The notes under the pieces: generated by a model
Databases searched by the model: none
What the model saw: the letters and a program-made list of their open reading frames with translations, nothing else
Told to the model about the DNA's origin: nothing
From: Cytobacillus oceanisediminis
GTDB lineage: Bacteria > Bacillota > Bacilli > Bacillales > Cytobacillaceae
Reading direction: 5' to 3'
Assembly (NCBI RefSeq): GCF_004366035.1
Contig: NZ_SOEE01000001.1
Location: 372,001 to 436,000, forward strand
DNA length: 64,000 bases
Made by a program: the position numbers and the translations under genes
Shown: in pieces, positions 5,374-63,177 of the stretch
Layout of the letters: every line of letters starts with the position of its first letter
Position numbering within the stretch: position 1 is the stretch's first letter

Positions 5374-5379
5374 ATTAAT

Positions 5380-46650: not shown

Positions 46651-47037
46651 TTAGTTTTTTTCAATCCATTTTATCATTTTTTGCAGATCCGTGTCATAGT
46701 AAGCATATCCGAAAATTTCCTTATCAGACCCAATTTTCGTTTTGAAGGTAATTTGAATTAAGCTTGTTGCCACTGGTGAGACTTCATATGAAACAGATCC
46801 ATTTTTAAACGAAAAAATCCCTGACTCATCCGGGTCTATATTTTCGCTTAGCATTTTTTCAGTTTTTTTTAAGGAACACAGTAAGTAATACTCCTGCATC
46901 ATGACGGTTTCCGCCTGATTCACTATCCTTTTCTCAGAAATAAAATGATCTAATTGAATCGTAAGGAGAAAGAGTGCAGCCAGAATGATTGTTAAAGTAA
47001 GTGGATAAGAAAATCCATCCTGATTACGGTACATCAA
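46651..47037 (-). CDS. comGG: Competence minor pseudopilin ComGG
   Basis: 128 aa; N-terminal hydrophobic helix after DGFSYPLTLTIILAALFLL, which resembles but departs from the class III prepilin motif. Needed with the other ComG proteins for the DNA-uptake pseudopilus. Overlaps comGF by 14 bases. Sequence conservation is low in this family; call rests on operon position and N-terminus. Confidence 0.88.
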   Translation of the reverse strand: MMYRNQDGFSYPLTLTIILAALFLLTIQLDHFISEKRIVNQAETVMMQEYYLLCSLKKTEKMLSENIDPDESGIFSFKNGSVSYEVSPVATSLIQITFKTKIGSDKEIFGYAYYDTDLQKMIKWIEKN

Positions 47038-47503
47038 TATCCTCCATATTCATAAGGTAATATAGACGGGCCGAATGCTCCTGATCAAAACTATCCGATA
47101 CATTTATTTCAACTCCGCTTTTAATGGAACTGAATGTTATTCTATCAAGTTTCTGCAGGACAATTTCATGGCCTTTCATATCCACTCTCCTCCTCAAATT
47201 AGAACCATATTTTTCATAAATCACATTTTTCCCGTCTATCGTTAATACAATGGAAACTGGTGATATTTCTGCAGCATCAGCAAGCCTGATCTCTTTTTTC
47301 AGCTGATTGATAAATACATACCACTCAAGCCTTTGCGTCCTGGCTTCCATTTTCCAGTCCTGAAAGAGGAAATGAATGCTGACAGGCAAAAAGGAAGAGA
47401 TCATTAAAAATATTGCAAACGCAAACAGCATTTCCAGCATGGTAAATCCTTTATTGTTGGAATACTTCACACTTTTCTTCCGGTCTATCCCGTACGTTTT
47501 CAT
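47024..47503 (-). CDS. comGF: Competence minor pseudopilin ComGF
   Basis: 159 aa. Prepilin peptidase site NNKGFTMLEMLFAFAIFLMI (cleavage G|F) at about residues 16-36, later residues form the globular domain. Overlaps comGE by 53 bases; a GGAGG lies 12 bases before the ATG, so a downstream start closer to the prepilin motif cannot be excluded. Confidence 0.9.
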   Translation of the reverse strand: MKTYGIDRKKSVKYSNNKGFTMLEMLFAFAIFLMISSFLPVSIHFLFQDWKMEARTQRLEWYVFINQLKKEIRLADAAEISPVSIVLTIDGKNVIYEKYGSNLRRRVDMKGHEIVLQKLDRITFSSIKSGVEINVSDSFDQEHSARLYYLMNMEDIDVP

Positions 47504-47783
47504 ATCTTATGCAAACCTCCATAAATCCTTGGTTTTCGATAGGGAATATTTCATAGACGGTTTGATTTTCTATTATAGTCTTCCCCTCAGGATAATGCCC
47601 TTCCGAGGCGGCCTGCTGAAGACTCTCATAAAGCAGCTGTGTGCTTTTGTAATCCTGTTTTACCTCTTCAGAGTGCTCAATAGCCTTAATAACAAGAGGA
47701 AACATTATGCCCGCTGCAAGCAGAATCCCTGATAAAGACAGAAGGAGCTCAGCCAAAAAGAATCCTTCATTCCTTCTCCACAT
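47451..47783 (-). CDS. comGE: Competence minor pseudopilin ComGE
   Basis: 110 aa beginning MWRRNEGFFLAELLLSLSGI, with a prepilin-like cleavage site G|F and a hydrophobic helix. ATG at 47781-47783 follows GAGGGAG by five bases. Overlaps both neighbours slightly, typical of the tight comG operon. Confidence 0.9.
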   Translation of the reverse strand: MWRRNEGFFLAELLLSLSGILLAAGIMFPLVIKAIEHSEEVKQDYKSTQLLYESLQQAASEGHYPEGKTIIENQTVYEIFPIENQGFMEVCIRYENVRDRPEEKCEVFQQ

Positions 47784-48207
47784 AAAATCTCCCTCTTCCA
47801 ATTAAAAAGGTAATTTTGTATTGGTCATTTCCTGCTTTGACATAGAAAGTACCGAATTTATTTGTAATACCTCCAGGTCCATATTGAAAAAACAATGGCA
47901 TGGTACCCTCCTTAATCTCAATTATTCCAGGATATTCTCTGCTGATGATAGGATCAGCTGCAAACTTTGCCTGGGCGTAATACCTTTTCTTCTCGGGAAC
48001 AATTTGAATAGCTACATCTGTCTGATGGGTGATGGCATAGCTCTGGGCATAAAGCAGGTCAGACTTTAATTGGGAAAAGAACATTCTCTTTTCAAGATTG
48101 AGGAATTGCGGTTTAAGAAGAATAGCTGTAATCGTGGCAATCATAAGGAAAATACTGAAAACGAAAAGAGTTTCTATTAATGTAAAGCCTTCTTTGTTCT
48201 TTATCAT
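47767..48207 (-). CDS. comGD: Competence minor pseudopilin ComGD
   Basis: 146 aa. Class III prepilin leader NKEGFTLIETLFVFSIFLMI at residues 3-22. Probable initiator-tip component of the pseudopilus. Overlaps comGC by four bases (ATGA type) and comGE by 17 bases. Confidence 0.93.
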   Translation of the reverse strand: MIKNKEGFTLIETLFVFSIFLMIATITAILLKPQFLNLEKRMFFSQLKSDLLYAQSYAITHQTDVAIQIVPEKKRYYAQAKFAADPIISREYPGIIEIKEGTMPLFFQYGPGGITNKFGTFYVKAGNDQYKITFLIGRGRFYVEKE

Positions 48208-48527
48208 GACCCTGAAGATTCAACCTTCCCTTCTGCAGAAATCTTAATGGCATCTCCATTTGGACAAGTCGTGGTTTCAGCATTGAGGTATTCGGAATCC
48301 ACTAAATCCTGTATACCTGAAGGAAGCTCTTTATTGTCAATTTCATATGCCTGAACCTGGGCCTGCACCATTTTAACAAACGCATCGCATCCCTTGCTGT
48401 TTATTTTTGAATTGTGTTTCGTTACATTCGGAATGGTGATGATTAAGAGCACGGAAATCACCAATAAAACAATCATCATTTCAATGAGCGTGAACCCTTT
48501 GTCATTATTTACTGTGCGCCATTTCAT
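48204..48527 (-). CDS. comGC: Major competence pseudopilin ComGC
   Basis: 107 aa. Leader DKGFTLIEMMIVLLVISVLL with cleavage G|F by ComC peptidase; two cysteines (SKGCDAF, TTTCPNG) match the intramolecular disulfide of ComGC. Intact main subunit of the DNA-uptake pseudopilus. Overlaps comGB by one base. Confidence 0.96.
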   Translation of the reverse strand: MKWRTVNNDKGFTLIEMMIVLLVISVLLIITIPNVTKHNSKINSKGCDAFVKMVQAQVQAYEIDNKELPSGIQDLVDSEYLNAETTTCPNGDAIKISAEGKVESSGS

Positions 48528-49558
48528 TAAAATCCCTCCAATAGATGAAACATAGGCAGCAGAACCGCCAAATACATTGAGACTATTAAAAAACCGATAA
48601 ACATATATAAAATAGGCTGAATCACTTTAAGAAGTTTTTCTGTCTTTTCCTCCAGTTTATTTAAACAATGCCTGCTGAAAAAAGATAATTCCTGGTCCAG
48701 CCTCCCATTTTTTTGACCATGTCTGATAATATTGGCCAGTTCCCTTTCAAAAAAAGGATAACTAATTAGTATATCCTCAAGTTTATTCCCCTCACGGAGT
48801 TTGATTTTCACGGCTTCACCGAGGGCACTGTAAAAAGGCTGCTTATCATTTTTCTCAAAAAGACTAAGCGCCTCATATATGGATAGGCCGCCATTTAAGA
48901 GGTGACTGAGCTGTACAGCAAAGAAATGGGTATAGTAAAGGCGAAGAAAATGGCCTCCCGCAGGAATTTTTACCATGACCTTCTTTTGCTGGATAGGGGA
49001 AAGCTTTCTGAATCTAAAAAAATAGTATATAAGCAAAGTGACTAAACCGAAGAGTACAGTCAGAATGAATAATGGGAGAAGGTCCCCAAACAAATAAACG
49101 GCTTTCGTGAAGAAATTAGGCTTAAGATGCATGGAAACGAATAAGGAGGAGAAACGGGGAAGCAGGACTTTATCAACGAAGACAAATAGGAATGCGGTAA
49201 TGAACATCAGAAAAATAGGATAGGCCATCAGTTTTTGCAATTTTTCAATGTCCTTTCCTTTTCTCAGCACCATTTCACTTCCTTCAAGAAATGCTGAAGC
49301 AAGGCCGCCATGCTGTTCAGCAAAAAATACATAGCCGATCAGATTATTATTAAAGTTCATGTTTGCAAGGATTTGATAAAATGGAAATCCTTCTTTCAAT
49401 TGAGAGAGGCACTGGCTGATTTCATGTTTTCGTTTTGGCGGCAGCTGATGCATCAGTGATTCCAGTGCCTCAGATAAGGGGTACCCTCTGGACAGCAGTT
49501 CACCAGTATTTTTCAGAAACAAGCCCTGTTCTTGAATGGTCCATTTATATTTCTGCAT
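48527..49558 (-). CDS. comGB: Competence pseudopilus platform protein ComGB
   Basis: 343 aa GspF/PilC-type membrane protein with three main hydrophobic helices (about 110-130, 158-180, 315-340) and two cytoplasmic domains. Intact. Overlaps the end of comGA by 14 bases, so translation was coupled to comGA; with comGA interrupted, its expression needs explanation. Confidence 0.95.
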   Translation of the reverse strand: MQKYKWTIQEQGLFLKNTGELLSRGYPLSEALESLMHQLPPKRKHEISQCLSQLKEGFPFYQILANMNFNNNLIGYVFFAEQHGGLASAFLEGSEMVLRKGKDIEKLQKLMAYPIFLMFITAFLFVFVDKVLLPRFSSLFVSMHLKPNFFTKAVYLFGDLLPLFILTVLFGLVTLLIYYFFRFRKLSPIQQKKVMVKIPAGGHFLRLYYTHFFAVQLSHLLNGGLSIYEALSLFEKNDKQPFYSALGEAVKIKLREGNKLEDILISYPFFERELANIIRHGQKNGRLDQELSFFSRHCLNKLEEKTEKLLKVIQPILYMFIGFLIVSMYLAVLLPMFHLLEGF

Positions 49559-50180
49559 TGTCTTGCACCCACCTGCTGTACTCAGTGTCCTTTATATATC
49601 CCAGAGCAATCCCTTTAGTTATTACCTCTTTAAGCGTGCGATACTTAACAAGACTTCCTTCACCTCTCGCCTTCTTGATGGAGGCATTAAGCGCTCTTCC
49701 TGCAAGAAGTTCAAACACACTTGCCCTTTTCCACCTGCCGTATCCATAGCAGAATGGAGAACATTCCCCTTCACAATAAGGGCAATTCAATTCGACAAGG
49801 CGCTGAGCCGTGACAGCTACTAGTGTCTGCTCAATTTCCATCATATTCACCCCAAACTCAGCTAAACGATATACAGCCCCCTGAGCATCCCGAGTATGCA
49901 TCGTGCTTAAGACAAGGTGACCTGTAAGCGCTGCTCTAACAGCAATCTTCGCAGTTTCCGCATCCCTGATTTCACCCACCATAATGATATCGGGGTCATG
50001 GCGAAGGATTGCTTTCAAGCCTGCGGAATAAGATACGCCTGCTTTTTCATTAACTTGAACTTGAAGGACCAAGTCATTTTCTTTTTCAATCGGATCTTCC
50101 AGGGTGATCACATTGCGATGGAACATATGAGAGGTTTCATTCAGCAGAGAATACAATGTGGTGGTTTTTCCGCTTCCAGT
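49545..50180 (-). pseudogene. comGA: comGA, C-terminal part only, cut by prophage
   Basis: ComGA is the traffic ATPase that assembles the competence pseudopilus (about 350 aa). Only about 212 residues remain here, starting inside the Walker A motif (TGSGKTTTLYSLLNE) and continuing normally through Asp box VITLEDPIE, Walker B-region IIMVGEIRDAETAKIAVRAAL, His box and a Cys cluster (CPYCEGECSPFC) to the stop. Upstream codons turn into unrelated phage sequence (residues C-I-Y-V-T-L-S before TGSGK). The open frame reaches an ATG at 50243 but with no SD. The N-terminal half must lie at the other prophage end, outside the window. Confidence 0.95.
50163..50180. other. Probable prophage attachment core in the comGA Walker A codons
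   Basis: Minus strand ACTGGAAGCGGAAAAACC, coding TGSGKT, is the last sequence shared with a normal comGA. A phage att core is expected at this junction and should recur at the other prophage end. Exact limits cannot be set from one end. Confidence 0.65.
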
Positions 50181-50225
50181 TGATAAAGTTACATAAATAC
50201 ACCTAAACTTTAATTTATTAATAAA

Positions 50226-50253
50226 TTGGAATACGCATTCCATTTTTTATAAA
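50226..50253 (+). promoter_or_regulatory. Promoter of the lipoprotein gene with palindromic spacer
   Basis: TTGGAA, 16 bases, TATAAA, followed 46 bases later by the lipoprotein ATG. The spacer overlaps a 16-base inverted repeat (TGGAAT / ATTCCA, 50227-50242), which could be a repressor operator. Confidence 0.5.
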
Positions 50254-50299
50254 AAATTGCTAAACTATTAAATGTAAAAAAAAGAAGGGGGAAATAAGT

Positions 50300-50914
50300 A
50301 TGAAAAATTTGTTTATATTTGGTGTTGTCGCTTTAATTATTGGATTGCTAACGGCTTGTGGAGGAGTTGAACAAGTAGAAAAGAAAGAACCGGTTAAAGA
50401 AGAAACAAAAAAAGAAGATCAGAATCCTGTTCCTAATAAGGAAGAAAATGAGGATGTACAAAAAACCGAAGCAGGAACTTTTACAGCAGTTCATACTTTT
50501 GAAAAAGAAACGAAAATAGATACTGAATCACCATTTGAGCTAACAATAAAAAAAGTTAAAGCTTTTAGTGGTGAACTATCTGAAACAGGTAAAGAGCTTA
50601 TCCCAGAAGCTAACGGTGACATGGTTATTATTACTATGTCTGTAGAAAATACTAGCGATGAAACATTGTCGTTTTATCCAGATCAATCGACTATTACCAC
50701 AAGTACAGGAGAACAATTAGAATCAGAAGTGTTCTTTTCAGATGATGTAGGCGGGGATTTCATCGGGCAAGTAAAAAAAGAAGGAACAGTTAGATTTTTA
50801 CTAAAAAGTACAAAAGCAGAAGATATCGAATGGGTCCGTATTTTAATTGATGCACCACATAATGAGAATCTTGATAATATTGGCAAGTCAGTAGATCATA
50901 CATTTACATTTTGA
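50300..50914 (+). CDS. Prophage-encoded lipoprotein, DUF4352-like
   Basis: 204 aa with a lipoprotein signal peptide and lipobox LLTAC (Cys20), a Lys/Glu-rich linker (20-60), and a beta-rich C-terminal domain (about 70-204) of the DUF4352/telokin-like type (VIITMSVENTSDETLSFYPD). SD AGGGGGAA. It is the only plus-strand gene of the prophage part seen and lies between att and the lysis genes, the usual place for lysogenic conversion genes; surface function (for example superinfection exclusion) is inferred. Confidence 0.85.
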   Translation: MKNLFIFGVVALIIGLLTACGGVEQVEKKEPVKEETKKEDQNPVPNKEENEDVQKTEAGTFTAVHTFEKETKIDTESPFELTIKKVKAFSGELSETGKELIPEANGDMVIITMSVENTSDETLSFYPDQSTITTSTGEQLESEVFFSDDVGGDFIGQVKKEGTVRFLLKSTKAEDIEWVRILIDAPHNENLDNIGKSVDHTFTF

Positions 50915-50922
50915 TATAAAGT

Positions 50923-50960
50923 AAAAACAGCCCCTCTCAAATTTATGAGAAGGGCGTTTT
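50923..50960. terminator. Bidirectional terminator between lipoprotein and lysis genes
   Basis: AAAACAGCCCCTCTCA, AATTTA loop, TGAGAAGGGCGTTTT; lies between convergent genes. Confidence 0.85.
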
Positions 50961-50964
50961 AAAT

Positions 50965-51663
50965 TTATTCCTGAACAATGTAAGTTTGATATCCTTTTTT
51001 CTTCAATTCAGCAGCAAGATTATCGGCATTACCCTTATCTGAGAATGCACCAACTTGGACTTTATATAATTTTTCACTATTTGATGAGGTTGGTTTTGAT
51101 TCAGGTTTCTTCTTTAGGCCGAGGAATTCGGCGACCCCTTCGACATGGCCTGCAGCAATTAGAATTAATTTAGATCTGCTTTTTAAAATGGCAGCATCTG
51201 TTTTATTATCAATAAACCCATTTTCAGTTAGCATTGCTGCCATTTTTGATTCTCTTAGAACATGGAAATTAGCCCGCTTCTTCCCTCGGTCTTTGGTGAA
51301 TACCTTTTTACCGATGATCTTTGAATGAACTGCGTTTTGGAAAGCTTGTGTCTTCGCTCCTGCGCCAGGGTAGATATATGATTCAAACCCGATTCCCCCG
51401 CCTGCGTTTATATGAATGGAAAGGTAAAGATCCGCACCCCAGACATTCGCTTCATTTGTGCGCTGCTCTAAAGAGAAATTCTTATCTCCCAATCTGGAAA
51501 ATTTAATTTCCACATTTTCATATTCGCCTAACATATCTTTAATATATTTACCTATTTCCAAAACTACATTACATTCTTTCAGTCCGTTCCCGACTGCCCC
51601 CGGGTCCATTCCTTTTAAGTCACCTTCATGTCCAAGATCAATATATACTTTCTTTTTAGCCAT
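50965..51663 (-). CDS. Phage endolysin: N-acetylmuramoyl-L-alanine amidase with SPOR domain
   Basis: 232 aa. Amidase_3 domain (1-175): zinc ligand in YIDLGHEGDLKGMDPGAVG, Glu and His in LSIHINAGGG, and catalytic Glu in MLTENGFIDN. A linker KPESKPTSSNSEK leads to a C-terminal SPOR-type repeat (YKVQVGAFSDKGNADNLAAE) that binds peptidoglycan. Resembles CwlC-type amidases. Last gene of the late operon, after the holin. Confidence 0.94.
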   Translation of the reverse strand: MAKKKVYIDLGHEGDLKGMDPGAVGNGLKECNVVLEIGKYIKDMLGEYENVEIKFSRLGDKNFSLEQRTNEANVWGADLYLSIHINAGGGIGFESYIYPGAGAKTQAFQNAVHSKIIGKKVFTKDRGKKRANFHVLRESKMAAMLTENGFIDNKTDAAILKSRSKLILIAAGHVEGVAEFLGLKKKPESKPTSSNSEKLYKVQVGAFSDKGNADNLAAELKKKGYQTYIVQE

Positions 51664-51707
51664 TGTTTTCTTCTCCCTTCATAAGAAGAGCCACCCGGAA
51701 GGGCAGC

Positions 51708-51914
51708 TTATTTCTTCTTTTTAAACCAACCGGTGTATGTGTTCTTCCACACTGCATATAGATTTACAGTTAGGGCGATGGCTGCTGAAACCAACACAAC
51801 AAAAGCGTTTATACTTTCTTCATTAAACCATTCAAATGCGATTCCCACTGTGGACAAGAAAAAAAGAAGGGCCGTAAGGAACCCTCCTAAAAGTGTTGCG
51901 ATATCTTTATTCAT
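51708..51914 (-). CDS. Phage holin (SPP1-like)
   Basis: 68 aa with two membrane helices (about 8-26 and 38-57), a basic C-terminus (WFKKKK) and the loop FEWFNEES. Layout and the WKNTYTGWF ending fit the SPP1-type holin family. Directly upstream of the amidase in transcription order. Confidence 0.82.
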   Translation of the reverse strand: MNKDIATLLGGFLTALLFFLSTVGIAFEWFNEESINAFVVLVSAAIALTVNLYAVWKNTYTGWFKKKK

Positions 51915-51916
51915 TT

Positions 51917-52195
51917 TTAGCTTCCTCCTTTGAATACTGTAAACACAATCGCTATACTGCCGCCAATGACTCCTGTGCAGACTGCTGTGATTAAAGCTGC
52001 TGTAATCGTCCTCTTAATCCATGTAGTATTTTCATTAATGCTATCCAAAGTTTTATTAATTGCTTTAATTTGTTCATCATGTCGATCAGTTTTTCTTTCC
52101 AATTTATCAATCCTGGAATCCATGGACTTGATTTCACCTTTAATTTCTGTAATTTCATTTCCATAAACAATAGGCGCTGTCGTCTCCTGTGTCAC
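51917..52195 (-). CDS. XhlA/haemolysin-type phage lysis-associated protein
   Basis: 92 aa: coiled-coil N-half (KSMDSRIDKLERKTDRHDEQ) and a single C-terminal membrane helix (ALITAVCTGVIGGSIAIVF). This is the XhlA (PBSX) plan, a membrane partner of the holin-endolysin system. Two bases separate it from the holin gene. Confidence 0.85.
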   Translation of the reverse strand: MTQETTAPIVYGNEITEIKGEIKSMDSRIDKLERKTDRHDEQIKAINKTLDSINENTTWIKRTITAALITAVCTGVIGGSIAIVFTVFKGGS

Positions 52196-52214
52196 TCACA
52201 ATCCCCCTTTTTGA

Positions 52215-52241
52215 CAAAATAAAAAAGCCCTATTTGGCTTC
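52215..52241 (-). terminator. Terminator between tail and lysis genes
   Basis: Minus strand AAGCC, AAATAG, GGCTT followed by TTTTATTTT. Stem is short (5-6 pairs), so read-through is likely; it may lower lysis gene expression. Confidence 0.65.
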
Positions 52242-52245
52242 TGTT

Positions 52246-52371
52246 TCACAATGTCTGATTTAATTTATCTTCCAATTCTTTTACTTTCGCTTCAAGTTCA
52301 ATAACTCTATCTTTAAGATTATCTGTTTCTTCAACCGGTTCAGGCTTTCGAATTATCGGGGTAAGCTTCAT
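52246..52371 (-). CDS. 41-aa coiled-coil phage protein
   Basis: ATG at 52369-52371 preceded by GAGGAGAG with eight-base spacing. Product begins MKLTPIIRKPEPVEETD and ends in a heptad-like helix (RVIELEAKVKELEDKLN). It overlaps the 3' end of the 130-aa gene. Small proteins like XkdX occupy this slot in many Bacillus prophages, but the sequence is not clearly that family. Confidence 0.7.
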   Translation of the reverse strand: MKLTPIIRKPEPVEETDNLKDRVIELEAKVKELEDKLNQTL

Positions 52372-52732
52372 TATTTCCGCTCTCCTCTATGATTAATTCC
52401 TCAATAAAAACAAAATCACCTTTATACGTTCCATCTTTAGCAGTTTCAACTGTCATTAACCTGTGGAATATTTCGCCTTCTCCTTCAAAAACTGCAGGAG
52501 TTCTTCCATCATCATAAGTGACAATTAATCTATAATCATAAGAATTGTTTATTTTTACAATATATAAATCATGAATGACGTTTATTTCTTGATCAAAAAT
52601 CAAATCAAATTCAACTGCTTCGATATCTTTTGAATCTAATTTGCCATGACCAATACTTATTGTTGTCTCTGTTTCGGTTAATTCAAATCCAGTCATGAAA
52701 CGTCTATTATTGATTGTTTTTATTTCAATCAT
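52340..52732 (-). CDS. Phage protein of unknown function (130 aa)
   Basis: Mixed beta-rich protein (ISIGHGKLDSKDIEAVEFDL) without signal or membrane segments, directly after the large tail protein gene and so probably a tail-tip or baseplate-associated component. No family recognised. Confidence 0.75.
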   Translation of the reverse strand: MIEIKTINNRRFMTGFELTETETTISIGHGKLDSKDIEAVEFDLIFDQEINVIHDLYIVKINNSYDYRLIVTYDDGRTPAVFEGEGEIFHRLMTVETAKDGTYKGDFVFIEELIIEESGNNEAYPDNSKA

Positions 52733-52743
52733 ATAAACACCTC

Positions 52744-55413
52744 TTATCTGATAGTTTCATATAAGATTAACAATCTTATAGTTATGGTTAAAGAAGAACC
52801 TAAAGTGCCCGGTATATATCGCATCCACACTCTAAATCCTGTGGAAGACTGATTATATACAGCTACATTGAAATTAACCGCATTAGAATTATACGGAACT
52901 GCTATTACATGGAATATATTTTCTGCTCCGCTAAAATTATAATCATTAAAAGTTTGACTTTGACCAGCATCCATTGTAATTGTGAATTGGTCTATATAAC
53001 CGATAATTGAAGAATGCTGCACACCATGTATATTTTGGATATTTTGAGATACTAGATTCATTGAAGGCCAAAAATAATTATTATTTCCTGCTCTCATTCG
53101 TGTTTGTGGAAGGTATGCTAAATCTGTATAAATGCCTGCATATGTCCCTGAAGAATCAGTGTCTAATTTCATCATCTGCTTTGAAGAACCATCACCAGTT
53201 CCGCGATATTGCCACACTTCAAATCCGAAACGTTCGTCAGTTCCACCTGGAGGATTATTATCCCTTCCTGTATCGATTATTACTCCGCTCCATCTTGTTG
53301 GAGGAGTTGCAGTATCTGTAAAATTTCTTAAATGAATTTTGGGGATCCTTCCTGCAGCTGTACCTCCAGACCTTGTGCTCCTTAAAATTAATTCTCCATT
53401 ATCAAGCTCCTCTGTAGAACCATCAATTTCTCCTATACGTGTGTTTCTATCAAAATATGCTACACGTTTTGAAGTTTGACCAGTTGTACCGAATCCAAGT
53501 GCTAAGAAGTTTTTATAAGAGTTTAATGCAAACCCTGGATCATTAGATGGAACTGTAACTTCATCACGAATCGAACCAACTAAAGAACCGTCTATTTCGC
53601 TATAAACTTGAAATCCAAATTCATTTACAGAAGCGATTTTATTATTTGATCTGTATGCATCCAATGTTCCATCTTTTATTTGAACAATATTCCCGTTTCC
53701 GTCATCTGAAACAATTTCAATACCTGTTAATATACCGGTTGTGATATTCGTTGCATTAATATCTATTACATTCACTTTTCCTGCATCTAATGTACCGGTT
53801 GTGATTTTATCAGCACTAACACCTTGCGCAATTAATTGATTAGTAATTGTTAATGGTTGAATATCATTATTACCATTGATTTTTACTGTCTGTGTATTAG
53901 CTTCTGAACTAAATGCACTTGTATGTCCGTGCGTATTAACACCACGTACTCTGTAATACCACTGCTGGTCAGTTTCAATACTGTGGACGAATCCAGAGGT
54001 TTTACCTCTAAATAATAAATTAGATGAGTCTGGTATAAAATTAGGAGTCTGAGAACCATACAATTCATAATCAGATACAAACATGTCATATTGGAAAGAC
54101 CATCTTATTAATACGGTCTCGAATAATCCAAATGCTTCTAATGTTGGTACATCTGGAAGAATATCCGGTAAATTATCTCCATTGATCTCAGGGTTTTCAG
54201 CTTTATCCCAAATACCCTCTTTATCATTTATTTTTGATACGACATCCCCTAATAATCTGTCTGAATCATATAAATCAATGAAATCACCAAATTGTATTTT
54301 CCCAACATCATCAGGATTAGCAACATCGTATTCATAAACAATTACCCTTGCTTCCACTTCAATCGGCTTTGAAAAATTACGGTCAATAACAAAATTAGTG
54401 TCTCCTAACCTTGATTTCTCGAATTCATAGCCTTCCACACTATCAAGAAGGAAACCATCTAATGAATAATTTACAATCTGTTTTTTAGCTTGCTGCAAAG
54501 CTAACCAAGTATTCATCAATAATGTTTCTGGGTCGTCATCTTCCCCGCTTTCATAAATTCCGAATCTATGTCTGAATCCTCCGCCTGATTGTCCGTATCC
54601 GTATTTTTCTAATGCTTCAGGATCTCCAACCCATTCTTGCCCAGCTGGTTTATCCACTGGATCTCCATTTGCTTTACTCCAGACAACATCCCTAAAAGTT
54701 GTTTTCCTGGTAAATCCTCCGTCTTCTGTTTCAATGCTCTTTCCACGTCCATATAGAGCTGTCTTTGGATAAGATTGAACGGTTCGTTGTAACGACAATA
54801 TATCTTTATCTATTTCCCACCGTTTCCCTGTATCAGATCCACGCCTGGTTAAAATATCAATATATCTTCCAGTAATTTTATTACCATCAATCTCTATTCT
54901 GTCTACAAACTCACCGCCATAAGTGTTTAGAATTTCTTCTAATGCATCTTTGACAGTGATGTAATAAAAATTGACTGTATTTAATCCTAATGAAGCAACT
55001 GTTCCGACACTCCATCGTGTATTCTCTAAAGCGCTTGTCAAAGCTTCCTGAGCACTCTTTCCGATAATCCGCTTGTCTTCTATCGCTTCATCATAAAGTT
55101 CCATCATAGCAGGTTCACAGACAGCAGTAATCGTTGCTTTCCCATCCGATTCATCGCTAAATGTTTCTCTTATAAAAAAAAGACGAAAATTGGCGTCTTT
55201 GTCCATAAAGGCAGCAGAATTTTCGTCCGTTACATATTTGGCATCCACATGATTGGCAGGCACTGTGAACTCTAAAGCAGATCCCTTATTCAATTCTTCT
55301 TTAAACATTGCATTCCAGAATGGGCAAGGTGTATTCTCAACTGATCCATTCGTTTCATTCGATAAGATAGCAAGCATATTATCATAATGGTCAAAGATAT
55401 ATAAATCTGCCAT
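52744..55413 (-). CDS. Phage tail-tip protein with endopeptidase-tail and fibre domains
   Basis: 889 aa (ATG 55411-55413 after GAGGTGG; its A is the last base of the previous stop). N-terminal ~400 residues look like the Tal/prophage endopeptidase-tail family (baseplate hub; TVKDALEEILNTYGGEF, RRGSDTGKRWEIDKDI). A fibronectin III-like stretch follows (about 430-530, YYRVRGVNTHGHTSAFSSEA), then beta-helical fibre-like repeats (ITTGTLDAGKVNVIDIN, INATNITTGILTG) and a C-terminal beta domain probably used for host binding. Confidence 0.87.
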   Translation of the reverse strand: MADLYIFDHYDNMLAILSNETNGSVENTPCPFWNAMFKEELNKGSALEFTVPANHVDAKYVTDENSAAFMDKDANFRLFFIRETFSDESDGKATITAVCEPAMMELYDEAIEDKRIIGKSAQEALTSALENTRWSVGTVASLGLNTVNFYYITVKDALEEILNTYGGEFVDRIEIDGNKITGRYIDILTRRGSDTGKRWEIDKDILSLQRTVQSYPKTALYGRGKSIETEDGGFTRKTTFRDVVWSKANGDPVDKPAGQEWVGDPEALEKYGYGQSGGGFRHRFGIYESGEDDDPETLLMNTWLALQQAKKQIVNYSLDGFLLDSVEGYEFEKSRLGDTNFVIDRNFSKPIEVEARVIVYEYDVANPDDVGKIQFGDFIDLYDSDRLLGDVVSKINDKEGIWDKAENPEINGDNLPDILPDVPTLEAFGLFETVLIRWSFQYDMFVSDYELYGSQTPNFIPDSSNLLFRGKTSGFVHSIETDQQWYYRVRGVNTHGHTSAFSSEANTQTVKINGNNDIQPLTITNQLIAQGVSADKITTGTLDAGKVNVIDINATNITTGILTGIEIVSDDGNGNIVQIKDGTLDAYRSNNKIASVNEFGFQVYSEIDGSLVGSIRDEVTVPSNDPGFALNSYKNFLALGFGTTGQTSKRVAYFDRNTRIGEIDGSTEELDNGELILRSTRSGGTAAGRIPKIHLRNFTDTATPPTRWSGVIIDTGRDNNPPGGTDERFGFEVWQYRGTGDGSSKQMMKLDTDSSGTYAGIYTDLAYLPQTRMRAGNNNYFWPSMNLVSQNIQNIHGVQHSSIIGYIDQFTITMDAGQSQTFNDYNFSGAENIFHVIAVPYNSNAVNFNVAVYNQSSTGFRVWMRYIPGTLGSSLTITIRLLILYETIR

Positions 55414-57320
55414 TAGTACCACCTCGGTCTATAGCTATAATTAACAGTTGCAACACCATCTGGTAAGACATGAATATAATTCTTTCCAGGCGTTAATTTA
55501 AACCAGGTAGAGTCAAAAGTTAAAATGTTCATATTCACTATCCCATTTAACGTTATTTTTCTTTTTGACATATCAATTTCTACTTTATCTCCAGGAGTGA
55601 AATCATATATTAATCTCACAAATCCGAATGTACCACCATGCATTATTTGAAATTCTGAAGCATTTGCAGTGAATTCGACATTAAATATTGGTAATGAAGG
55701 ACCATTTCCGTCTATTTCAATGGAATTTAAATCAATTTCGACTTCTAAATCCACATAATCCGTTTCGATTGTGGAAGGTGAAATTCCGTTTGACGGTTCG
55801 GCATATGCAATAAGATAAAAGAATCCATCTGAATTTACATATAAACTTACATTTTGAGAAGTGTGTGTTAGTTTCGATATGGTATCTGTTGTTTGACTGA
55901 ATACTGTGGTGTTCCAAGCGTTCGCATCACTTCTCCAAGCAGAAATAGTTGACCTGTTTTCCCCCGCCTTCAATTCGACTTCCAACTCTACATAATCGGT
56001 GTTGATCGTGCTTGCCGTTGTGCCGTCTGAAGCTTCTGCATGGGCTAGGAAGTGAATGAACCCGTCAGAATCGATATTATTCACGCTGTCAGTCCTTGTT
56101 AATTTTGTTACTGTTCCGTTTGTGTGAGAAGTTGTTCCGGCCCATGATGTAATTGCCCAAACTTTAAGAGTTGCTTTATTACCTGCAGGGCCAGAACCGT
56201 AACCATGCCAATTTACAGTTAAAGGGTTCAGATTGCTTTTCAACCACTGCGCCTTATCCGCTGTTGTTGCGCCTGGAACCGTTACAACGTATTTACGCTG
56301 TACGTATTCGATTAGGTTGAAGGAGAAAACTCTTTGAGCAATTTGCCCTGAAGAAACAGCCGAATCAGGTGTGAACACACCATCTAAAACAGATATGGTT
56401 TCATACGCTGAAGTTCCTGATTCTGTAGAAAAGTCTGTATTCGGATTCCCCAAAGTAGTTAAAGCCCCACGCCATCCAGAAAAATGAGGATTCTCAACCG
56501 TACTCCCCGAAACCTTCCCCACAAAGTTCGCTATGCCAATCGGATCAGCCTGCTTGTTCGTCCCTTTCCCCCACCAATTAGCCGTTATTTGGCTTATATT
56601 CGTTTTCAGCCATTGCACCTGTGCAGCAAGGTTTGCACCTGGTACGGTGAAGCCGAATTTGCGCTTGATTAGGGCGATTAGGTTGAAGGAGAAAACGAGA
56701 TTTCCTTGCGACCCATAGTTAGTGCGAGTAGCAGGTAGAGTAGAACCGTCTAAGTACATTATCCGCGAGTAATTAGAGTCGGTTATTTCAAAAGAAGCTT
56801 CAGAAGGGGTTGGTATACCAACAAAACTAAGTCCAGCAGTCTTGCTTATGTGCGGATTTTCTTTGGTACTCCCCGCAATCTTCCCTTTAAAATCATCAGT
56901 TCCTGATTCAGTGTTAGGAGTTAAAACATCCGTTTCATAATCATCATATTTATATGGCTGCCGGATTAAAGGAATCGTACCATTTGTAATAAAGAAGTAT
57001 TCATCCTCTTGTTTGCTCGTATCTAAATAAGCATAATATGTTTTACCTGGTTCATCAGAAAATGTAACGGGTACTACTTCTCCGCCCATAATAATTGAAT
57101 TTAATTCATCAAATTTAGTTCTGATTTCTTCTAAATTATCTGTATTAAACACATAATCAATTTCTAATGGCTTATCTATTAAACGTCTTCGGACATAATA
57201 ATCTCCGTCCCTTCCTGCTACAGAAACAACTGAGTCCTCCACACTAGCAAGTCCTCTACCCCTTACCTTCAATACTTCTATGGGAAGTTTAATTCCGTTA
57301 TAAGTCATTGTAAAACTCAT
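55413..57320 (-). CDS. Distal tail protein (Dit) enlarged by two kinds of repeated module
   Basis: 635 aa. Dit-type N-terminus (1-135, SVVSVAGRDGDYYVRRRLI) and C-terminus (about 540-635, GGTFGFVRLIYDFTPGDKVEID) are separated by some 400 inserted residues. Module A occurs at about 143-254 and 265-378 (shared VFSFNLI..., VPGA, QWLK-N, NW-G-G); module B at about 380-450 and 458-529 (shared SKLT, NSDGF, AYAEPS/AHAEAS, T-IxTDYVxLEVE). Such evolved Dits carry carbohydrate-binding modules; sugar binding is inferred. Overlaps the tape measure gene by four bases. Confidence 0.87.
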   Translation of the reverse strand: MSFTMTYNGIKLPIEVLKVRGRGLASVEDSVVSVAGRDGDYYVRRRLIDKPLEIDYVFNTDNLEEIRTKFDELNSIIMGGEVVPVTFSDEPGKTYYAYLDTSKQEDEYFFITNGTIPLIRQPYKYDDYETDVLTPNTESGTDDFKGKIAGSTKENPHISKTAGLSFVGIPTPSEASFEITDSNYSRIMYLDGSTLPATRTNYGSQGNLVFSFNLIALIKRKFGFTVPGANLAAQVQWLKTNISQITANWWGKGTNKQADPIGIANFVGKVSGSTVENPHFSGWRGALTTLGNPNTDFSTESGTSAYETISVLDGVFTPDSAVSSGQIAQRVFSFNLIEYVQRKYVVTVPGATTADKAQWLKSNLNPLTVNWHGYGSGPAGNKATLKVWAITSWAGTTSHTNGTVTKLTRTDSVNNIDSDGFIHFLAHAEASDGTTASTINTDYVELEVELKAGENRSTISAWRSDANAWNTTVFSQTTDTISKLTHTSQNVSLYVNSDGFFYLIAYAEPSNGISPSTIETDYVDLEVEIDLNSIEIDGNGPSLPIFNVEFTANASEFQIMHGGTFGFVRLIYDFTPGDKVEIDMSKRKITLNGIVNMNILTFDSTWFKLTPGKNYIHVLPDGVATVNYSYRPRWY

Positions 57321-59443
57321 AGTAACCCCCCATTTAATTGCCTAATAGCCCGATTCCTTCTATCTACTTGAAGTCCTGTAACATCATTTGTGATCGATTC
57401 AGCAATTACTCTACCGTTTAAAATGGATTGGACAACAATATTCTCGGGCATCCCTTTCATTACCGCTGTCATAACGGAAGCCATGTTATCTTTATTAAAT
57501 CCTAATTGTTGTTGTTTATTTAAATCAGCGTTTAATGTCATAGTTGCTGCGTTTGCTAACCTCTTGCTTGCGTTTCCAACTGCATTTTCCATATCACCTA
57601 TACCATTTGCAAGTCCTTGGCCAACATATTCACCAATTTTAGTTGTTATTCTAGATGGGCTATGTGTATCAAAAGCATTCTGCAATGTTCTAATAACATA
57701 ACTGGCAATTGATTTTGCCTTGTTATAAATCTTATAAGCTGTATCTGTAATACCATTTACTAATCCCGAGATTAAATCTTTACCAATTCGATATGCTTCT
57801 TTAGGAATTTTGGCAATTTTTTTGAAGATAGGCTGTACAATCCTTGATTCAATGGATGTTTGGAGGCTTTGAGCAACGGAAACAATACCCTTAAGTAGCG
57901 CTAGTATTAATTCAGCTCCAGCTTCTAATATTTCATACCTATGATCCCAAATCATTCGTCCCATTTTTGCAACTAATTCAACAATCTTGTCTAAAACTAA
58001 TGGCAAATTCGCCTGTAATCCTTTGATTAAACTTAACAGTAATTCTTTACCGTTTCTCAGCATATTAGGAAGATTATCAACAAATATATCTAATAATTGG
58101 ATTAGTAGTTTAGAAATCAATGATAAAATATCAGGAATCAATTCAATAAATGCTTTTTGGACAACATTTAATATTTCCAATCCCTTTTGATAGAACTGAG
58201 GAAGGTTTTGAACGATGAATTCTATCATTTTCGTCAACATATCCCGGACAAATTGTATGATCTTCTGTGTGCTTTCACCTGATTTACCTTCTAAATCAGT
58301 TAAACTTTTAATAACTCCTGCGTTTTTATTTACCCAATCAACTAAAGCAGTTAATAGAGTAGTTAAAAATGTCATTAAGGGGGTTAGTGTAATAGATAGT
58401 TCTGCTAATGCATCCTTTAATGCTAAATTCGCCTCATGATTAGCAACTAATTCTGGATTTAACTTTTTATATTCTTCATATGCAGAAGCTAATCCTAATG
58501 AAGACAACTGCTCTAAGACATAGTTAGTTTCATCTCCGTTCTTTTTAGCTTTCGCTAATCCAGCATTAAAGGTTTCTAAACTTACTTCTGATCGTTCTAA
58601 TAGTTCAGCAAACGATCCTGCAGCTTCTCCAGTTGCGAATGTTTCCTGGATACCGTCAGCTATACCTTCCGTGTTAAGAGTGTCAGAGAAACGGATAGCA
58701 GCGCCATTAACCAAGTCGATAGCATCAGCTAATTGATTTTCATCAAAACCTGTTTGAATTAAGTTAGATACCGTTTCTACTGCTGCTTCTGTATCTCCAG
58801 ATACTGCAGCTATTTCTAACATACCTTCTTTAATAGGTTTATAGTTGAAACCGACGTTATTAGCGTTTGCTTTCAATCTTGCTAATGACCTATTGTAATC
58901 TTCTGTCCCCTCCACAAGACCAGCAATCCCTGCTACTCCTGCAGCTGATATGCCAGCAGCTGCTTTACTTGCAGTTCCGATTCCTCTTGCTAATCCACCA
59001 ACTGCTTTTGTTGCTCCACGAGCAGCTGATTCTATTTTCTCCATTCCTCTTGCGATTCGACCAGGTTCATCTCCAGCTCCAAGACTATCTAATTCATTTT
59101 GAAAATGTTCGAGCCTTCCTTCCGTTGCGATAATTTCACGCTGAAATGCTCTGAATTGATCTGCACCAATTTCTCCATTTTCAAATTGACGTTGTACTTC
59201 TTCCTCGGCTTCTTTAAGTTGTTCTAATTTTTTAGTTGTATTTTCAATCTGTTCGCCTAATAATTGTTGTTTTTGAGCAATTAATTCAGCATTGCCGGGA
59301 TTGAATTTAAGCAATCTATTAACATCTTGCAACTCTTTGTGTAAATCCCTGCTTCGTGAATTAACATCACTAAGCGCCTGATCTAATCCAGTTGCATCAC
59401 CGTCAATTTCAATCGTTATACCTCTAATTCTGCTACTAGCCAT
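57317..59443 (-). CDS. Phage tail tape measure protein
   Basis: 708 aa, sets tail length. N-terminal coiled coil (about 15-130, GENERAL pattern LLKFNPGNAELIAQKQQLLG), a Gly/Ala-rich hydrophobic stretch (AAGISAAGVAGIAGL), the tape-measure core region (about 180-380), membrane-like helices (LTPLMTFLTTLLTALV) and a C-terminal VGQGLANGIG segment. It follows the gpG/gpGT pair as in most siphoviruses. A 708-aa tape suggests a tail of roughly 100 nm by the usual 0.15 nm per residue rule. Confidence 0.94.
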   Translation of the reverse strand: MASSRIRGITIEIDGDATGLDQALSDVNSRSRDLHKELQDVNRLLKFNPGNAELIAQKQQLLGEQIENTTKKLEQLKEAEEEVQRQFENGEIGADQFRAFQREIIATEGRLEHFQNELDSLGAGDEPGRIARGMEKIESAARGATKAVGGLARGIGTASKAAAGISAAGVAGIAGLVEGTEDYNRSLARLKANANNVGFNYKPIKEGMLEIAAVSGDTEAAVETVSNLIQTGFDENQLADAIDLVNGAAIRFSDTLNTEGIADGIQETFATGEAAGSFAELLERSEVSLETFNAGLAKAKKNGDETNYVLEQLSSLGLASAYEEYKKLNPELVANHEANLALKDALAELSITLTPLMTFLTTLLTALVDWVNKNAGVIKSLTDLEGKSGESTQKIIQFVRDMLTKMIEFIVQNLPQFYQKGLEILNVVQKAFIELIPDILSLISKLLIQLLDIFVDNLPNMLRNGKELLLSLIKGLQANLPLVLDKIVELVAKMGRMIWDHRYEILEAGAELILALLKGIVSVAQSLQTSIESRIVQPIFKKIAKIPKEAYRIGKDLISGLVNGITDTAYKIYNKAKSIASYVIRTLQNAFDTHSPSRITTKIGEYVGQGLANGIGDMENAVGNASKRLANAATMTLNADLNKQQQLGFNKDNMASVMTAVMKGMPENIVVQSILNGRVIAESITNDVTGLQVDRRNRAIRQLNGGLL

Positions 59444-59464
59444 GGTCTCACCTACCTTTTCAGA

Positions 59465-60030
59465 CTAGAATCTATCGAAATCTGCCTGTGTAGCTTTCCT
59501 GCCTTTTCTGCTCTTCTCCTTGGGGTTGTGGAAGCCAACATATTCATCAATGAAATCAAATACCATTTGCACTGACATCTCATCAAGTTCTTGAAGTGAT
59601 AGTCCAACGTGTTTGGCTATAAAATAAAAAAAGTCAGTGGTCAATTCACGACCAGCTGACTTCGTTTCATCTATTTTTTTTTTGAATTGCCGAGTGTGTG
59701 TAACAATAAATCCATCAATTCATTCAGGATATCAAATATAGGGAACTCATCAAAAGAATCAAGCCAAGTAATTGGATCAGAAATGGATTTATCTGCATTT
59801 TTAGCAAATACCCAAATAATATTATAAAACATATCAAAGTCAATCTGAGTCAATACATCCAAATCAAGATTATTCTTGTCTTCCACACTTGAGATAGTCG
59901 TTATGACTTTATTTAATTTCAAAACATCAGTGAAAAATTCACTTCCGAATTGCATTTTATATCTAATAGGTGTTGCAGCAGTTGATTTGAATACAACATC
60001 CTTGCCGTCAATGGTTATGGTTTTAATCAT
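59465..60030 (-). CDS. Tail assembly chaperone gpGT by programmed -1 frameshift
   Basis: Extension of the 119-aa gpG-like protein. The run of ten A (minus strand, 59674-59683) just before the gpG stop lets ribosomes slip -1; reading then continues ATA GAT GAA for 69 codons to TAG at 59465-59467, giving about 188 aa. The extension has FFYFIAKHVGLSLQELDEMS and ends RKATQADFDRF. This is the standard gpG/gpGT layout between major tail protein and tape measure. Confidence 0.85.
59671..60030 (-). CDS. Tail assembly chaperone gpG
   Basis: 119 aa, ends GNSKKK at TAG. Zero-frame product of the gpG/gpGT pair; binds the tape measure during tail assembly. Sequence itself is variable; the call rests on position between major tail and tape measure genes, size and the slippery A-run at its end. 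Confidence 0.85.
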   Translation of the reverse strand: MIKTITIDGKDVVFKSTAATPIRYKMQFGSEFFTDVLKLNKVITTISSVEDKNNLDLDVLTQIDFDMFYNIIWVFAKNADKSISDPITWLDSFDEFPIFDILNELMDLLLHTLGNSKKK

Positions 60031-60620
60031 TAGCCTTCTACTCCAGCTGTCTCAGTTAATGTAGGTTCATATACTGCATCATACCAAGCATCATAAATAG
60101 CTGCAGGAGTATCAGGAGTAGTTTTTGTTTTAACTGCATAATCAGTTGATCTTGCAGAAGATACAAAAGTTAATTCATTTGGTGTTGGTTCAACTGTGTC
60201 TGTTGTTGTGGAAGAAGTCACAGTAGGTCTGTTTGCTGTACAATTATATAGTACATAGCGTGTAGCTTTCACATCACCACCGAATTCAAATAAGAAAGCG
60301 AATGGAGCTCCTTTTGCAGTTGCTACTTCGGTAGAAACCATATCAGTAGCATCTTTAATTTCTCCTAGAACATCAATTGCAAACGATTCAGGGATATTTG
60401 CAATGGATAATGTAGCATCATAACCCTGATTGTTTTGTCCGGAGAAATAAAGATTGTCATCAGCATAAAATTCGATCAAGTCACCACGAATTTCTAAGCT
60501 TAACTCTACTAAACCTGGCATTGGAATTGGAGTCCCATATATAATATTTCCTTCTGTGTCAGTTGTAAATGTTGCATAGTGAGCGTTTTTAATACCAAAG
60601 ATAACTTTGTTTTCAGCCAT
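60030..60620 (-). CDS. Phage major tail protein (phi13-like)
   Basis: 196 aa beta-rich tube subunit: begins MAENKVIFGIKNAHYATFT, with EIRGDLIEFYADDNLYFSGQ and KATRYVLYNCTANRPTV, patterns of the phi13-type major tail protein family. One base overlap with each neighbour. Confidence 0.9.
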   Translation of the reverse strand: MAENKVIFGIKNAHYATFTTDTEGNIIYGTPIPMPGLVELSLEIRGDLIEFYADDNLYFSGQNNQGYDATLSIANIPESFAIDVLGEIKDATDMVSTEVATAKGAPFAFLFEFGGDVKATRYVLYNCTANRPTVTSSTTTDTVEPTPNELTFVSSARSTDYAVKTKTTPDTPAAIYDAWYDAVYEPTLTETAGVEG

Positions 60621-60988
60621 TATATGTTCACCCCGATTTTTTTGTTGTTATATTCTTCTGTTACGATAATGTCAAAATCATAGATTTGTAAGAATAATTT
60701 TTCAGCTTGAATCCATGATTCATCTTTTTGATATGCAATTCCATTAGCAGTCAATAAATCTTCAACTTTCTTTTCTGCTAATTCATCTTTGATACTGGTG
60801 TACAACTCAACATTAATGCTGTCTATTCGTTTATAAACTTTTTCATCAGCAAAAAAATTATTGCTACCTGTGACAAGATACGCAATAAATGGAGGTTGTG
60901 GAGGGACGTCATCTGTTTCATTAAAATGTGAATATGCTACTGGAAAACCTGTCTGATCTAAAATCGCTTTTAATTCTTCTAAAGTCAT
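60620..60988 (-). CDS. Tail completion/connector protein
   Basis: 122 aa, includes PVAYSHFNETDDVPPQPPFI and IDSINVELYT, a pattern seen in tail-terminator proteins encoded just before the major tail protein of phi13/TP901-like phages. Overlaps gp10-like gene by four bases. Confidence 0.75.
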   Translation of the reverse strand: MTLEELKAILDQTGFPVAYSHFNETDDVPPQPPFIAYLVTGSNNFFADEKVYKRIDSINVELYTSIKDELAEKKVEDLLTANGIAYQKDESWIQAEKLFLQIYDFDIIVTEEYNNKKIGVNI

Positions 60989-61356
60989 CCTCTTATAGCC
61001 CTTTCTACTTCCGATATAAACTCGCTAATTACTTCTTGTTCTACTGGAGCAATATGAGGAATAGGTTCAGTCCTTCCGCCATTCACAGTTAGATGTCCTT
61101 TTTCAAGCAAATGAGTAAGTCTGTAATGCTTCTTATTGTGGATGACATACTTATAACCAGTTCTACTTCTTACTTTCTTTACTCCCCAACTATTAGCGTA
61201 CCTTCCAGTTCTTCTAGGACTTGTTTGTTTAAGCTTAGATGCGCCCCTTTTAGATACATCATCTTTAGCTGCATCTAATTTCTGATTAATTTCAGCAGAA
61301 TATTGACTAAGAATTAGCTGCATTTGTCTAGCAATATCATTATTAGCCATTGCCAA
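60985..61356 (-). CDS. HK97 gp10-like head-tail protein
   Basis: 123 aa, basic. Signature LKQTSPRRTGRYANSWGVKK and HLLEKGHLTVNGGRTEPIPH, the HK97 gp10/tail-completion family pattern. Overlaps both neighbours. Confidence 0.88.
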   Translation of the reverse strand: MAMANNDIARQMQLILSQYSAEINQKLDAAKDDVSKRGASKLKQTSPRRTGRYANSWGVKKVRSRTGYKYVIHNKKHYRLTHLLEKGHLTVNGGRTEPIPHIAPVEQEVISEFISEVERAIRG

Positions 61357-61651
61357 TCATCCTCTGACAAGTTAATTCGATTTCTTCCGAATTCACTTTA
61401 TATGTTTTGATCACATCATATCTTTTTCCCTCAAACTCTACTTTTTGTTGTTCATCATATTCGAATTTATGAATCAAAAAGATCCTTGTGGGTTTCATTC
61501 CATTATTGGCAGCATTATAAAATTCAGCCCTTGATACAGATTTAGAATCACATAAAATAGTGGTCTTTTTCTCTGAAGGAATTTGATTACCGATATTATC
61601 AGAACCATATACCTGTTCAATTAAAGTTAATTCATCGTCATACGTTGCCAT
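61343..61651 (-). CDS. Head closure (head-tail adaptor) protein
   Basis: 102 aa, begins MATYDDELTLIEQVYGSDNI; SVSRAEFYNAANNGMKPTRI and YDVIKTYKVN are usual in head-closure proteins of the SPP1 gp16/HK97 gp9 type. ATG at 61649-61651 chosen with GGCGGTG upstream; five further codons are open. Confidence 0.82.
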   Translation of the reverse strand: MATYDDELTLIEQVYGSDNIGNQIPSEKKTTILCDSKSVSRAEFYNAANNGMKPTRIFLIHKFEYDEQQKVEFEGKRYDVIKTYKVNSEEIELTCQRMIGNG

Positions 61652-61925
61652 CTTCAGCACCGCCATTATGAATAATCAAATTATGCAATCTAAATTGCAA
61701 ATGCCTTGGTAAGGCTCCCTCACTATCTCTGCTCATATATCTCCAGGTTGAATAATCCACACAAAACATTAAATGATTGGCATTATCTTGATTTAAAACA
61801 ATGCCTTTTTCATCAGTCAATTCGGTTATTATCCCATTAATAATGGCAGTCAGATATTGATCCCTGACTGCCGAAGTGATCCCTAATCGGGCTTTAACCA
61901 ATGATAAGATTAAATCTGTATCCAT
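61638..61925 (-). CDS. Head-tail connector (gp6-like)
   Basis: 95 aa, mainly helical: begins MDTDLILSLVKARLGI, with VDYSTWRYMSRDSEGALPRH. Fits DNA-packaging/connector proteins placed after the capsid gene. ATG at 61923-61925 after AAGGGTG. Confidence 0.82.
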   Translation of the reverse strand: MDTDLILSLVKARLGITSAVRDQYLTAIINGIITELTDEKGIVLNQDNANHLMFCVDYSTWRYMSRDSEGALPRHLQFRLHNLIIHNGGAEDGNV

Positions 61926-61937
61926 TTTTAACACCCT

Positions 61938-63098: not shown

Positions 63099-63177
63099 TA
63101 ACTTTCCCTCCTTGATTGATTTTTTCAGGGGAAATCATCGTATGATTAAATTCTAAAAATACTTTTATATCGTTCTA

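Follow-up and report, generated by a model that had tools for sequence, protein, structure and literature searches.

A prophage inside comGA of Cytobacillus oceanisediminis and the recurrence of this competence gene as a target of several kinds of mobile elements

The window analysed here is a 64,000-nucleotide stretch of the Cytobacillus oceanisediminis genome (contig NZ_SOEE01000001.1, abbreviated C1; window C1:372001-436000), taken from a 5.84-Mb draft that is called G000 below. A prophage is lodged inside comGA, the gene of a conserved competence ATPase, and removal of the insert gives an unbroken frame. The features at the junction are as follows, where L003 is a fetched stretch around the other prophage end and aa denotes amino acids.

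49545..50180, minus strand: comGA 3′ part, codons 146-356 (Walker A from GSGKT on, and Walker B), identified as an open reading frame, by alignment to an intact 356-aa ComGA and by whole-genome search
50178..50180, minus strand: crossover codon Thr146 (ACT); the other prophage end (L003:4105-4109) has CAACT too, in the same register
50181..64000: the part of the prophage within the window, which continues to C1:458604, for a total of 36,427 bp

A first-pass annotation, made from the letters of the window alone, had claimed that a prophage splits comGA and leaves only the portion from Walker A onward, and the coordinates bear this out, with phage genes adjoining codons 146-356 directly; the open frame of the 3′ part extends further, to 50243, solely via phage-side codons. 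It had also proposed that a 5′ part would lie at the far prophage end and rejoin into a frame of about 350 aa. Codons 1-146 are indeed present at L003:4105-4542 on the minus strand (C1:458605-459042), within the same 872,687-bp contig, and the insert between the equal bases of codon 146 separates the two pieces by 36,427 bp. The crossover position is inside the Walker A codons. In particular, the 5′-side junction reads ACAGGCCCAACT and then phage, the 3′-side junction reads phage and then TTATCAACTGGAAGC, and CAACT stands in an identical codon register at both ends; joining the pieces there yields an unbroken 356-aa frame with FTGPTGSGKTTTLY. A longer attachment-site repeat was not found, as no stretch of at least 12 bases at the right prophage end recurs exactly at the other, and the common core is limited to the 5-bp CAACT.

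A search of the whole genome returned a single match for the 3′ part, and the 356-aa query returned two pieces only; therefore, no second comGA was found, a possibility that the first-pass annotation had raised against itself. As the two pieces cover the comGA codons once each, the split is not due to chance. The annotation had further suggested a comparison with relatives whose comGA is empty, and five relatives do carry uninterrupted DNA at this site, one of which (G020) has comGA frameshifted elsewhere; a 356-aa open frame at comGA likewise occurs in 13 of 36 genomes of the genus. An assembly artefact was considered and rejected: both pieces lie on one 872,687-bp contig, and the same codon is occupied in the single-contig genomes G048, G146 and G167.

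The insertion recurs among related bacteria. Searches covered 36 genomes of the genus, with the comGA 3′ part as query, and 193 of the family, with the 356-aa protein, and the junction regions were fetched; in the larger search, 148 genomes have comGA full length as listed, 34 were examined in DNA and 11 (genus g20, E-values of 1.3e-155 to 7.1e-146) fall in neither group. Within the genus, the gene is split by insertion in 5/36 genomes; in the family it is split in 23/193 genomes, spread over eight genera (g1, g7, g8, g14, g18, g20, g22 and g24), at three places.

Site A, between Thr146 and Gly147: G000, G047, G048, G121, G124, G135, G146, G156, G167, G173
Site B, Val235 of TGHLVLST: G027, G033, G088, G129, G140, G148, G183, G184, G191
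Site C, codons ~250-256: G016, G019, G054, G122

Both comGA pieces are on one contig and 5.8 to 76 kb apart in 16 of the split genomes, and likewise in G054 at a distance of 485 kb; they are on different contigs in G047, G183, G184, G191 and G016, and G129 has a 5′ piece and its recombinase gene only. A draft whose contigs break between codons 93 and 126 (G078) was left out of the split count, as were genes broken by a frameshift or stop alone, also outside the family (G235, G321 and G415, the last a fragment with a stop). The two ends share the AC of codon 146 in 9 of the 10 site-A pairs (G135 lacks it) and the GT of codon 235 in all 8 site-B pairs, G129 having no 3′ piece. The insertions of G183 and G184, whose recombinases are nearly identical, may be shared by descent. 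At one site-A locus (G124, L065), a 9.6-kb insert lies between two frameshifted comGA pieces while comGB is whole, and departure of that insert would no longer yield a whole comGA.

The prophage of the window encodes a 471-aa large serine recombinase (LSR), whose gene stops 18 bp short of codon 146 in the comGA 5′ piece. The protein has a Resolvase N-terminal domain (E = 2.4e-40) followed by a Recombinase domain (E = 1.1e-12) in Pfam, and a zinc beta ribbon match stays below its cut-off (21.9 versus 25.3 bits); its PHROG match is an integrase, and its best match among solved structures is the TP901-1 integrase, over the N-terminal domain only. We infer that this LSR made the comGA insertion. 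When the 193 family genomes were searched with it, 28 matches reached E = 1e-60 or better, spread over 27 genomes. Five of the 193 genomes encode an LSR that shares 63% identity or more with it, and all five have comGA split at Thr146 (clade A1, below); this count includes G047, whose LSR and comGA pieces lie at contig ends. A sixth such LSR, with comGA again split at Thr146, was found in a metagenome-assembled genome (L006, its DNA read by eye), which was the sole match among named genomes. The next relatives, at 48-51% identity (G067, G021 and G190), are located elsewhere than comGA; two of them (48-50% identical; G021, L096 and G190, L097) adjoin maf and a cut radC, as read by eye; radC is likewise reported as a competence-linked target of mobile elements. 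Among phages, the LSR is 49.0% identical to that of Aeribacillus phage AP45 and 47.5% to that of Bacillus phage phi105; the likeness is in sequence, and the sister group of clade A1 in the tree includes LSRs adjoining cut radC. Viral contigs gave nine further relatives, eight at 46% and one at 26% identity, and no comG match was present in the three contigs examined with their flanks (L151, L153 and L155). A comparison of ComGA with phage records returned 37 records, of which the 15 listed are long matches (78-95% of the query, below 60% identity) and not attachment-site flanks.

Across the family, the three sites are served by different recombination systems. Site A is occupied by two LSR clades, which are distant relatives because they share only ~22-26% identity. 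Clade A1 comprises the LSRs of G000, G156, G167, G173, G047 and the metagenome-assembled genome L006, with inserts of 36-45 kb where measured; clade A2 comprises those of G048, G121, G124 and G146 and, outside the family, G372, G303 and G431, with inserts of 6-22 kb. Site B is served by a third clade, 34-39% identical to A1, whose members match site-B references at 44% identity or more over most of their length; the exceptions are the LSRs of G395 and G439, seen in part (39-40% over ~230 residues). In a tree of 39 LSRs, from which G174 (unread), G395 and G439 were left out, the support values are 100/100 for A1, 100/100 for A2 and 83/93 for the 12 site-B rows, a group that the program drew open. 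The LSR gene adjoins the comGA 3′ piece in two site-B loci (G140, L073 and G148, L075) and the 5′ piece in G027 and G033; the element of the former pair is reversed or of other gene order. No LSR was found in the 13.7-kb site-A insert of G135 (L060), where three large adjacent frames at 2001-7665 (444, 839 and 606 aa) have no Pfam match and are possibly an unrecognised recombination module.

Site C is occupied by transposons of the Tni type. Pfam identifies a TniA-like protein (rve/Mu transposase, with rve below its cut-off), TniB and TniQ in G122, and TniQ is present in G054 and homologues of TniA and TniQ in G019 and G016. A 5-bp target duplication with TGT...ACA ends, which is a hallmark of Tn7, was seen by eye in three of these four inserts (G019, G122 and G054, not G016).

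Outside the family, 288 genomes of the order were sampled and 15 outliers were examined in DNA. The gene is split by insertion in 10 of these 15, and therefore in at least 10 of the 288, a lower bound because only the outliers were examined. The insertions are at site A in G303, G372 and G431, at site B in G219, G298, G354, G395 and G439, and at site C in G195 and G431, where no Tni match was found in the fetched ends of the inserts. One comGA (G431; L162, L163) carries two insertions, of 11.2 kb at site A and 32.1 kb at site C. In G206, comGA is cut near codon 213 and abuts a tyrosine-recombinase-like gene in two frames, recognised by eye from its motif. Four of the comGA inserts within and outside the family (G303, L161; G431, L163; G195, L169; G016, L044) bear defence genes, namely type III restriction-modification, type II restriction-modification with Vsr, Gabija GajA/GajB and Shedu SduA; two proteins of the G124 insert had no PADLOC match.

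Three sets of genes were used as controls. For comGB, the matches listed cover 150 of the 193 genomes, among which two are not full length (G020, with a stop, and G144, with an insert); the other 43 were judged by E-value against their genus, and two stand out, one frameshifted without an insert (G069, L187) and one without comGB (G129). Thus comGB is split by an insert in 1/193 genomes for certain (G144) and in 2/193 at most (G144 and G129), and the comparison of 23 comGA with 2 comGB genes among 193 gives a Fisher p of 1.1e-5. Within the genus, all 44 rows of T2SSE paralogs (22 of ~550 aa and 22 of ~350 aa, with rows below 30 bits left out of the count) are single unbroken frames, and 5/36 split comGA genes versus 0/44 gives p = 0.016; both p values ignore kinship and treat the genomes as independent, which holds only in part. 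For glucokinase (GlcK), the best 150 of 193 rows are all full length. Among the 43 genomes outside these rows, one of which has no match, 12 comG neighbourhoods were inspected; GlcK is whole in G097, which raises the count to 151/193, and is not in the other 11 stretches. The glucokinase control supports a bias toward comGA weakly at most.

Downstream of the comGA 3′ part, the rest of the operon spans 46651-49558 in six unbroken frames.

48527..49558, minus strand: comGB, full frame (open reading frame; homology search)
48204..48527, minus strand: comGC, full frame (open reading frame; aligned to relatives)
47767..48207, minus strand: comGD, full frame (open reading frame; aligned to relatives)
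47451..47801, minus strand: comGE, full frame (open reading frame; aligned to relatives)
47024..47503, minus strand: comGF, full frame (open reading frame; aligned to relatives)
46651..47037, minus strand: comGG, full frame (open reading frame; aligned to relatives)
50930..50955, minus strand: terminator-like site after the endolysin gene, from a consensus scan (4 in the region versus 2.5 expected by chance)

The first-pass annotation was thus correct that comGB-comGG are all intact. Its claim that the operon is severed from its promoter stands in part: the upstream region, in which a tRNA gene was seen by eye, stays with the comGA 5′ piece, so that comGB-comGG are cut off from it, and that the sole promoter lies there is presumed. 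It had also read the undamaged downstream genes as a sign of either recent insertion or selection, and this sign does not discriminate: comGB has a full frame in 19 of the 23 split-comGA genomes, including the decayed G124 (of the other four, G054, G167 and G173 are not among the rows listed, and G129 is without comGB). Late phage transcription is predicted to stop before comGA and not to reach comGB-comGG, because of the terminator-like site and the intervening plus-strand gene.

Changes specific to G000, in a comparison with its three nearest relatives, are 16 synonymous versus 2 nonsynonymous in comGA and 28 versus 16 in comGB-comGG. The corresponding counts are 8 and 4, and 10 and 10, in the intact G017; 10 and 3, and 15 and 16, in the intact G032; and 5 and 1, and 30 and 18, in G020, where comGA is frameshifted and comGB has a stop. 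No relaxed constraint is seen in comGA or comGB-comGG of G000 in this comparison; therefore, either the insertion is recent or comGA is still used, and the data are compatible with both. A search limited to other selected competence genes found open frames for two ComK proteins (186 and 196 aa), ComEC (799 aa) and CoiA (402 aa). The two ComK-family genes (L007 and L008; C7 and C3) match at E = 3.6e-56 and 6.2e-34.

The prophage itself is apparently complete, judging from a gene set with terminase, portal, protease, capsid, connectors, tail, lysis, primase and repressor functions, and open frames encode its structural, lysis, replication and recombinase proteins. The genes within the window are listed below; beyond it follow protease, portal, terminase, primase, a Sak4-like protein, repressor and metalloprotease genes and then the 471-aa LSR gene.

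50300..50914, plus strand: phage-end gene with a lipoprotein-like signal (by eye) and a weak DUF4352 match below cut-off; it reads away from comGA
50965..51663, minus strand: endolysin (Amidase_3 + SPOR), from homology search
51708..51914, minus strand: holin, weak match (E = 2.3e-5)
52744..55422, minus strand: tail tip protein (Tal-like), from homology search
55413..57320, minus strand: distal tail protein (Dit-like), from homology search
57317..59443, minus strand: tape measure protein, from homology search
60030..60620, minus strand: major tail protein, from homology search
60620..61934, minus strand: tail terminator, tail completion, head-tail adaptor and one PHROG of unknown function, from homology search
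63178..64000, minus strand: major head protein, running past the window end, from homology search

The lipoprotein-like gene, at the prophage end nearest comGA and opposed to the late genes, is possible cargo.

Taken together, these observations favour, with a probability of about 0.58, a reading in which the prophage at codon 146 of comGA blocks transformation to the element's own gain, as one case of convergent targeting by elements that land in a conserved competence ATPase gene. In the proposed mechanism, the prophage would separate the two parts of the ATPase and cut comGB-comGG off from the upstream region, and is thereby predicted to stop DNA uptake; a comGA deletion in B. subtilis is reported to leave no detectable DNA association (PMC8262900). 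The gain to the element would be protection, because a cell unable to import DNA cannot swap the element for a neighbour's empty site. Ordinary induction would lead to precise excision and restore comGA, making the block reversible, without any necessary benefit to the host. The same outcome, reached at three places in comGA by three LSR clades and by Tni-type transposons, would then represent convergent targeting of transformation. These kinds of elements recur at few comGA positions in at least 22 related species, and turning off DNA uptake likely benefits them; that the recurrence reflects selection for blocked transformation is an interpretation. A broader proposal, held more tentatively and at slightly worse than even odds, treats comGA as a common off-socket of DNA uptake. 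Phages, small islands (some with defence genes) and Tni-type transposons would each have evolved their own plug-in for it, using Thr146, Val235 and codons ~250-256 in more than 30 species, with the block convergently selected and kept reversible by prophages.

Several observations weigh against a gain from blocked transformation, and most of them favour an alternative in which integrases and transposons have adapted to slowly changing DNA in a mostly dispensable gene, so that loss of uptake is a by-product of no benefit. Conservation of the motifs at the target codons could by itself attract integrases. The gene is also lost without an insert in 5/193 genomes, through frameshifts (G009, L047; G020, L046/L160; G162, L089) or in-frame stops (G066, G097), and may therefore simply be dispensable. 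Moreover, comGB, whose loss should also block uptake, is rarely interrupted, with one certain insert among 193 genomes, and the glucokinase control covers 151/193 genomes, leaving 42. The strain may not be naturally competent even with a whole comGA, and a search for ComK boxes upstream of the 5′ part gave, in G000, AAAAN5TTTT with one mismatch at about -114 and no conserved pair. However, neutral landing does not readily account for the unbroken T2SSE paralogs of the genus (44/44 rows), for the association of comGA with three LSR clades, Tni-type transposons and the tyrosine-recombinase-like gene of G206, or for the interruption of comGB (G144) and comGC (G105) as well; on balance, it is a credible but unlikely account. 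That the prophage is instead an immobile remnant, unable to leave a comGA that has become a pseudogene in two pieces, is very improbable: such decay does occur, as in G124, but here the structural, lysis, replication and recombinase genes are open and each comGA piece runs without a break as far as the junction.

The prophage could also be a host-serving switch, like phi10403S in Listeria comK, that responds to a competence or stress signal by leaving comGA without lysis. The exact restoration of the frame, the apparently complete prophage and the few nonsynonymous changes in comGA agree with such active lysogeny, which has precedents in comK (PMC6872733) and, with a serine recombinase, in spsM (PMC4191935). 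However, restoration of the frame is expected of any LSR prophage in a coding sequence, and the genome gave no sign of regulated excision and no identified excision factor. The decaying comGA pieces of G124 and the two inserts in one comGA of G431 also count against it, which makes this explanation improbable.

The first-pass annotation had presented comGA as possibly a second gene of the comK kind; elements in comGA (S. pseudintermedius), comGC/comYC, comFA and comM were already published. Prophage SpST71A occupies comGA of Staphylococcus pseudintermedius, split after 509 bp of 988 bp (PMC7029219); the gene is the same, in one species there versus several recombinase lineages, three places and many genera here. 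The Listeria phages phi10403S/A118 similarly interrupt a competence gene whose frame is restored by excision, but comK encodes a regulator and not an ATPase, and excision was measured there and is predicted here (PMC6872733). Mobile genetic element insertions in comYC, comFA, comM, comK and radC, at orthologous sites across species and with related integrases, have been explained as elements blocking their own removal by transformation, and the integrase of a B. cereus comFA prophage is related to the Listeria comK one (PMC4774983). The comGA elements share with that class an insert in a competence coding sequence and related integrases (A1) at the orthologous Thr146 of several species; in contrast, one gene is struck here at several codons by different systems, and in the portion of that paper seen comGA appears only in a reference title. 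The prophage phi-MC1 in Macrococcus is also within the comG operon, but in comGC and not comGA (PMC6008420). SP-beta in Bacillus subtilis spsM is likewise an LSR prophage in a coding gene with precise restoration; it differs in that the gene is a sporulation gene and the timing of excision depends on SprB, and no such factor was identified here (PMC4191935). Among open-licence papers, a search turned up none that describes repeated insertion into comGA by LSRs or Tn7-like elements in Bacillus relatives. The recurrence of comGA as a target of several kinds of elements was thus not found in print, and comGA as a prophage target was already known.

These insertions bear on the patchy distribution of transformation among related bacteria and on whether mobile elements counteract it. 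In this family, comGA is in pieces in about one species in eight, and a genome with a broken comGA may be in a reversible state and not have lost the trait. Three recombinase clades and a transposon family occupy comGA at three places while comGB is almost untouched, a testable natural experiment that also supplies several LSR families whose attB sites are defined and lie in conserved motifs.

Two insertions were observed in other genes of the operon. In G144 (L174, 1188-11090), a 9.9-kb element splits comGB at codon ~28, with comGA whole upstream, and carries genes for a 490-aa LSR-like protein and a 687-aa protein that is DUF262-like by eye. In G105 (L115), an LSR-type recombinase gene abuts a comGC that is cut after approximately codon 27, like the known comGC insertions of Streptococcus and Macrococcus.

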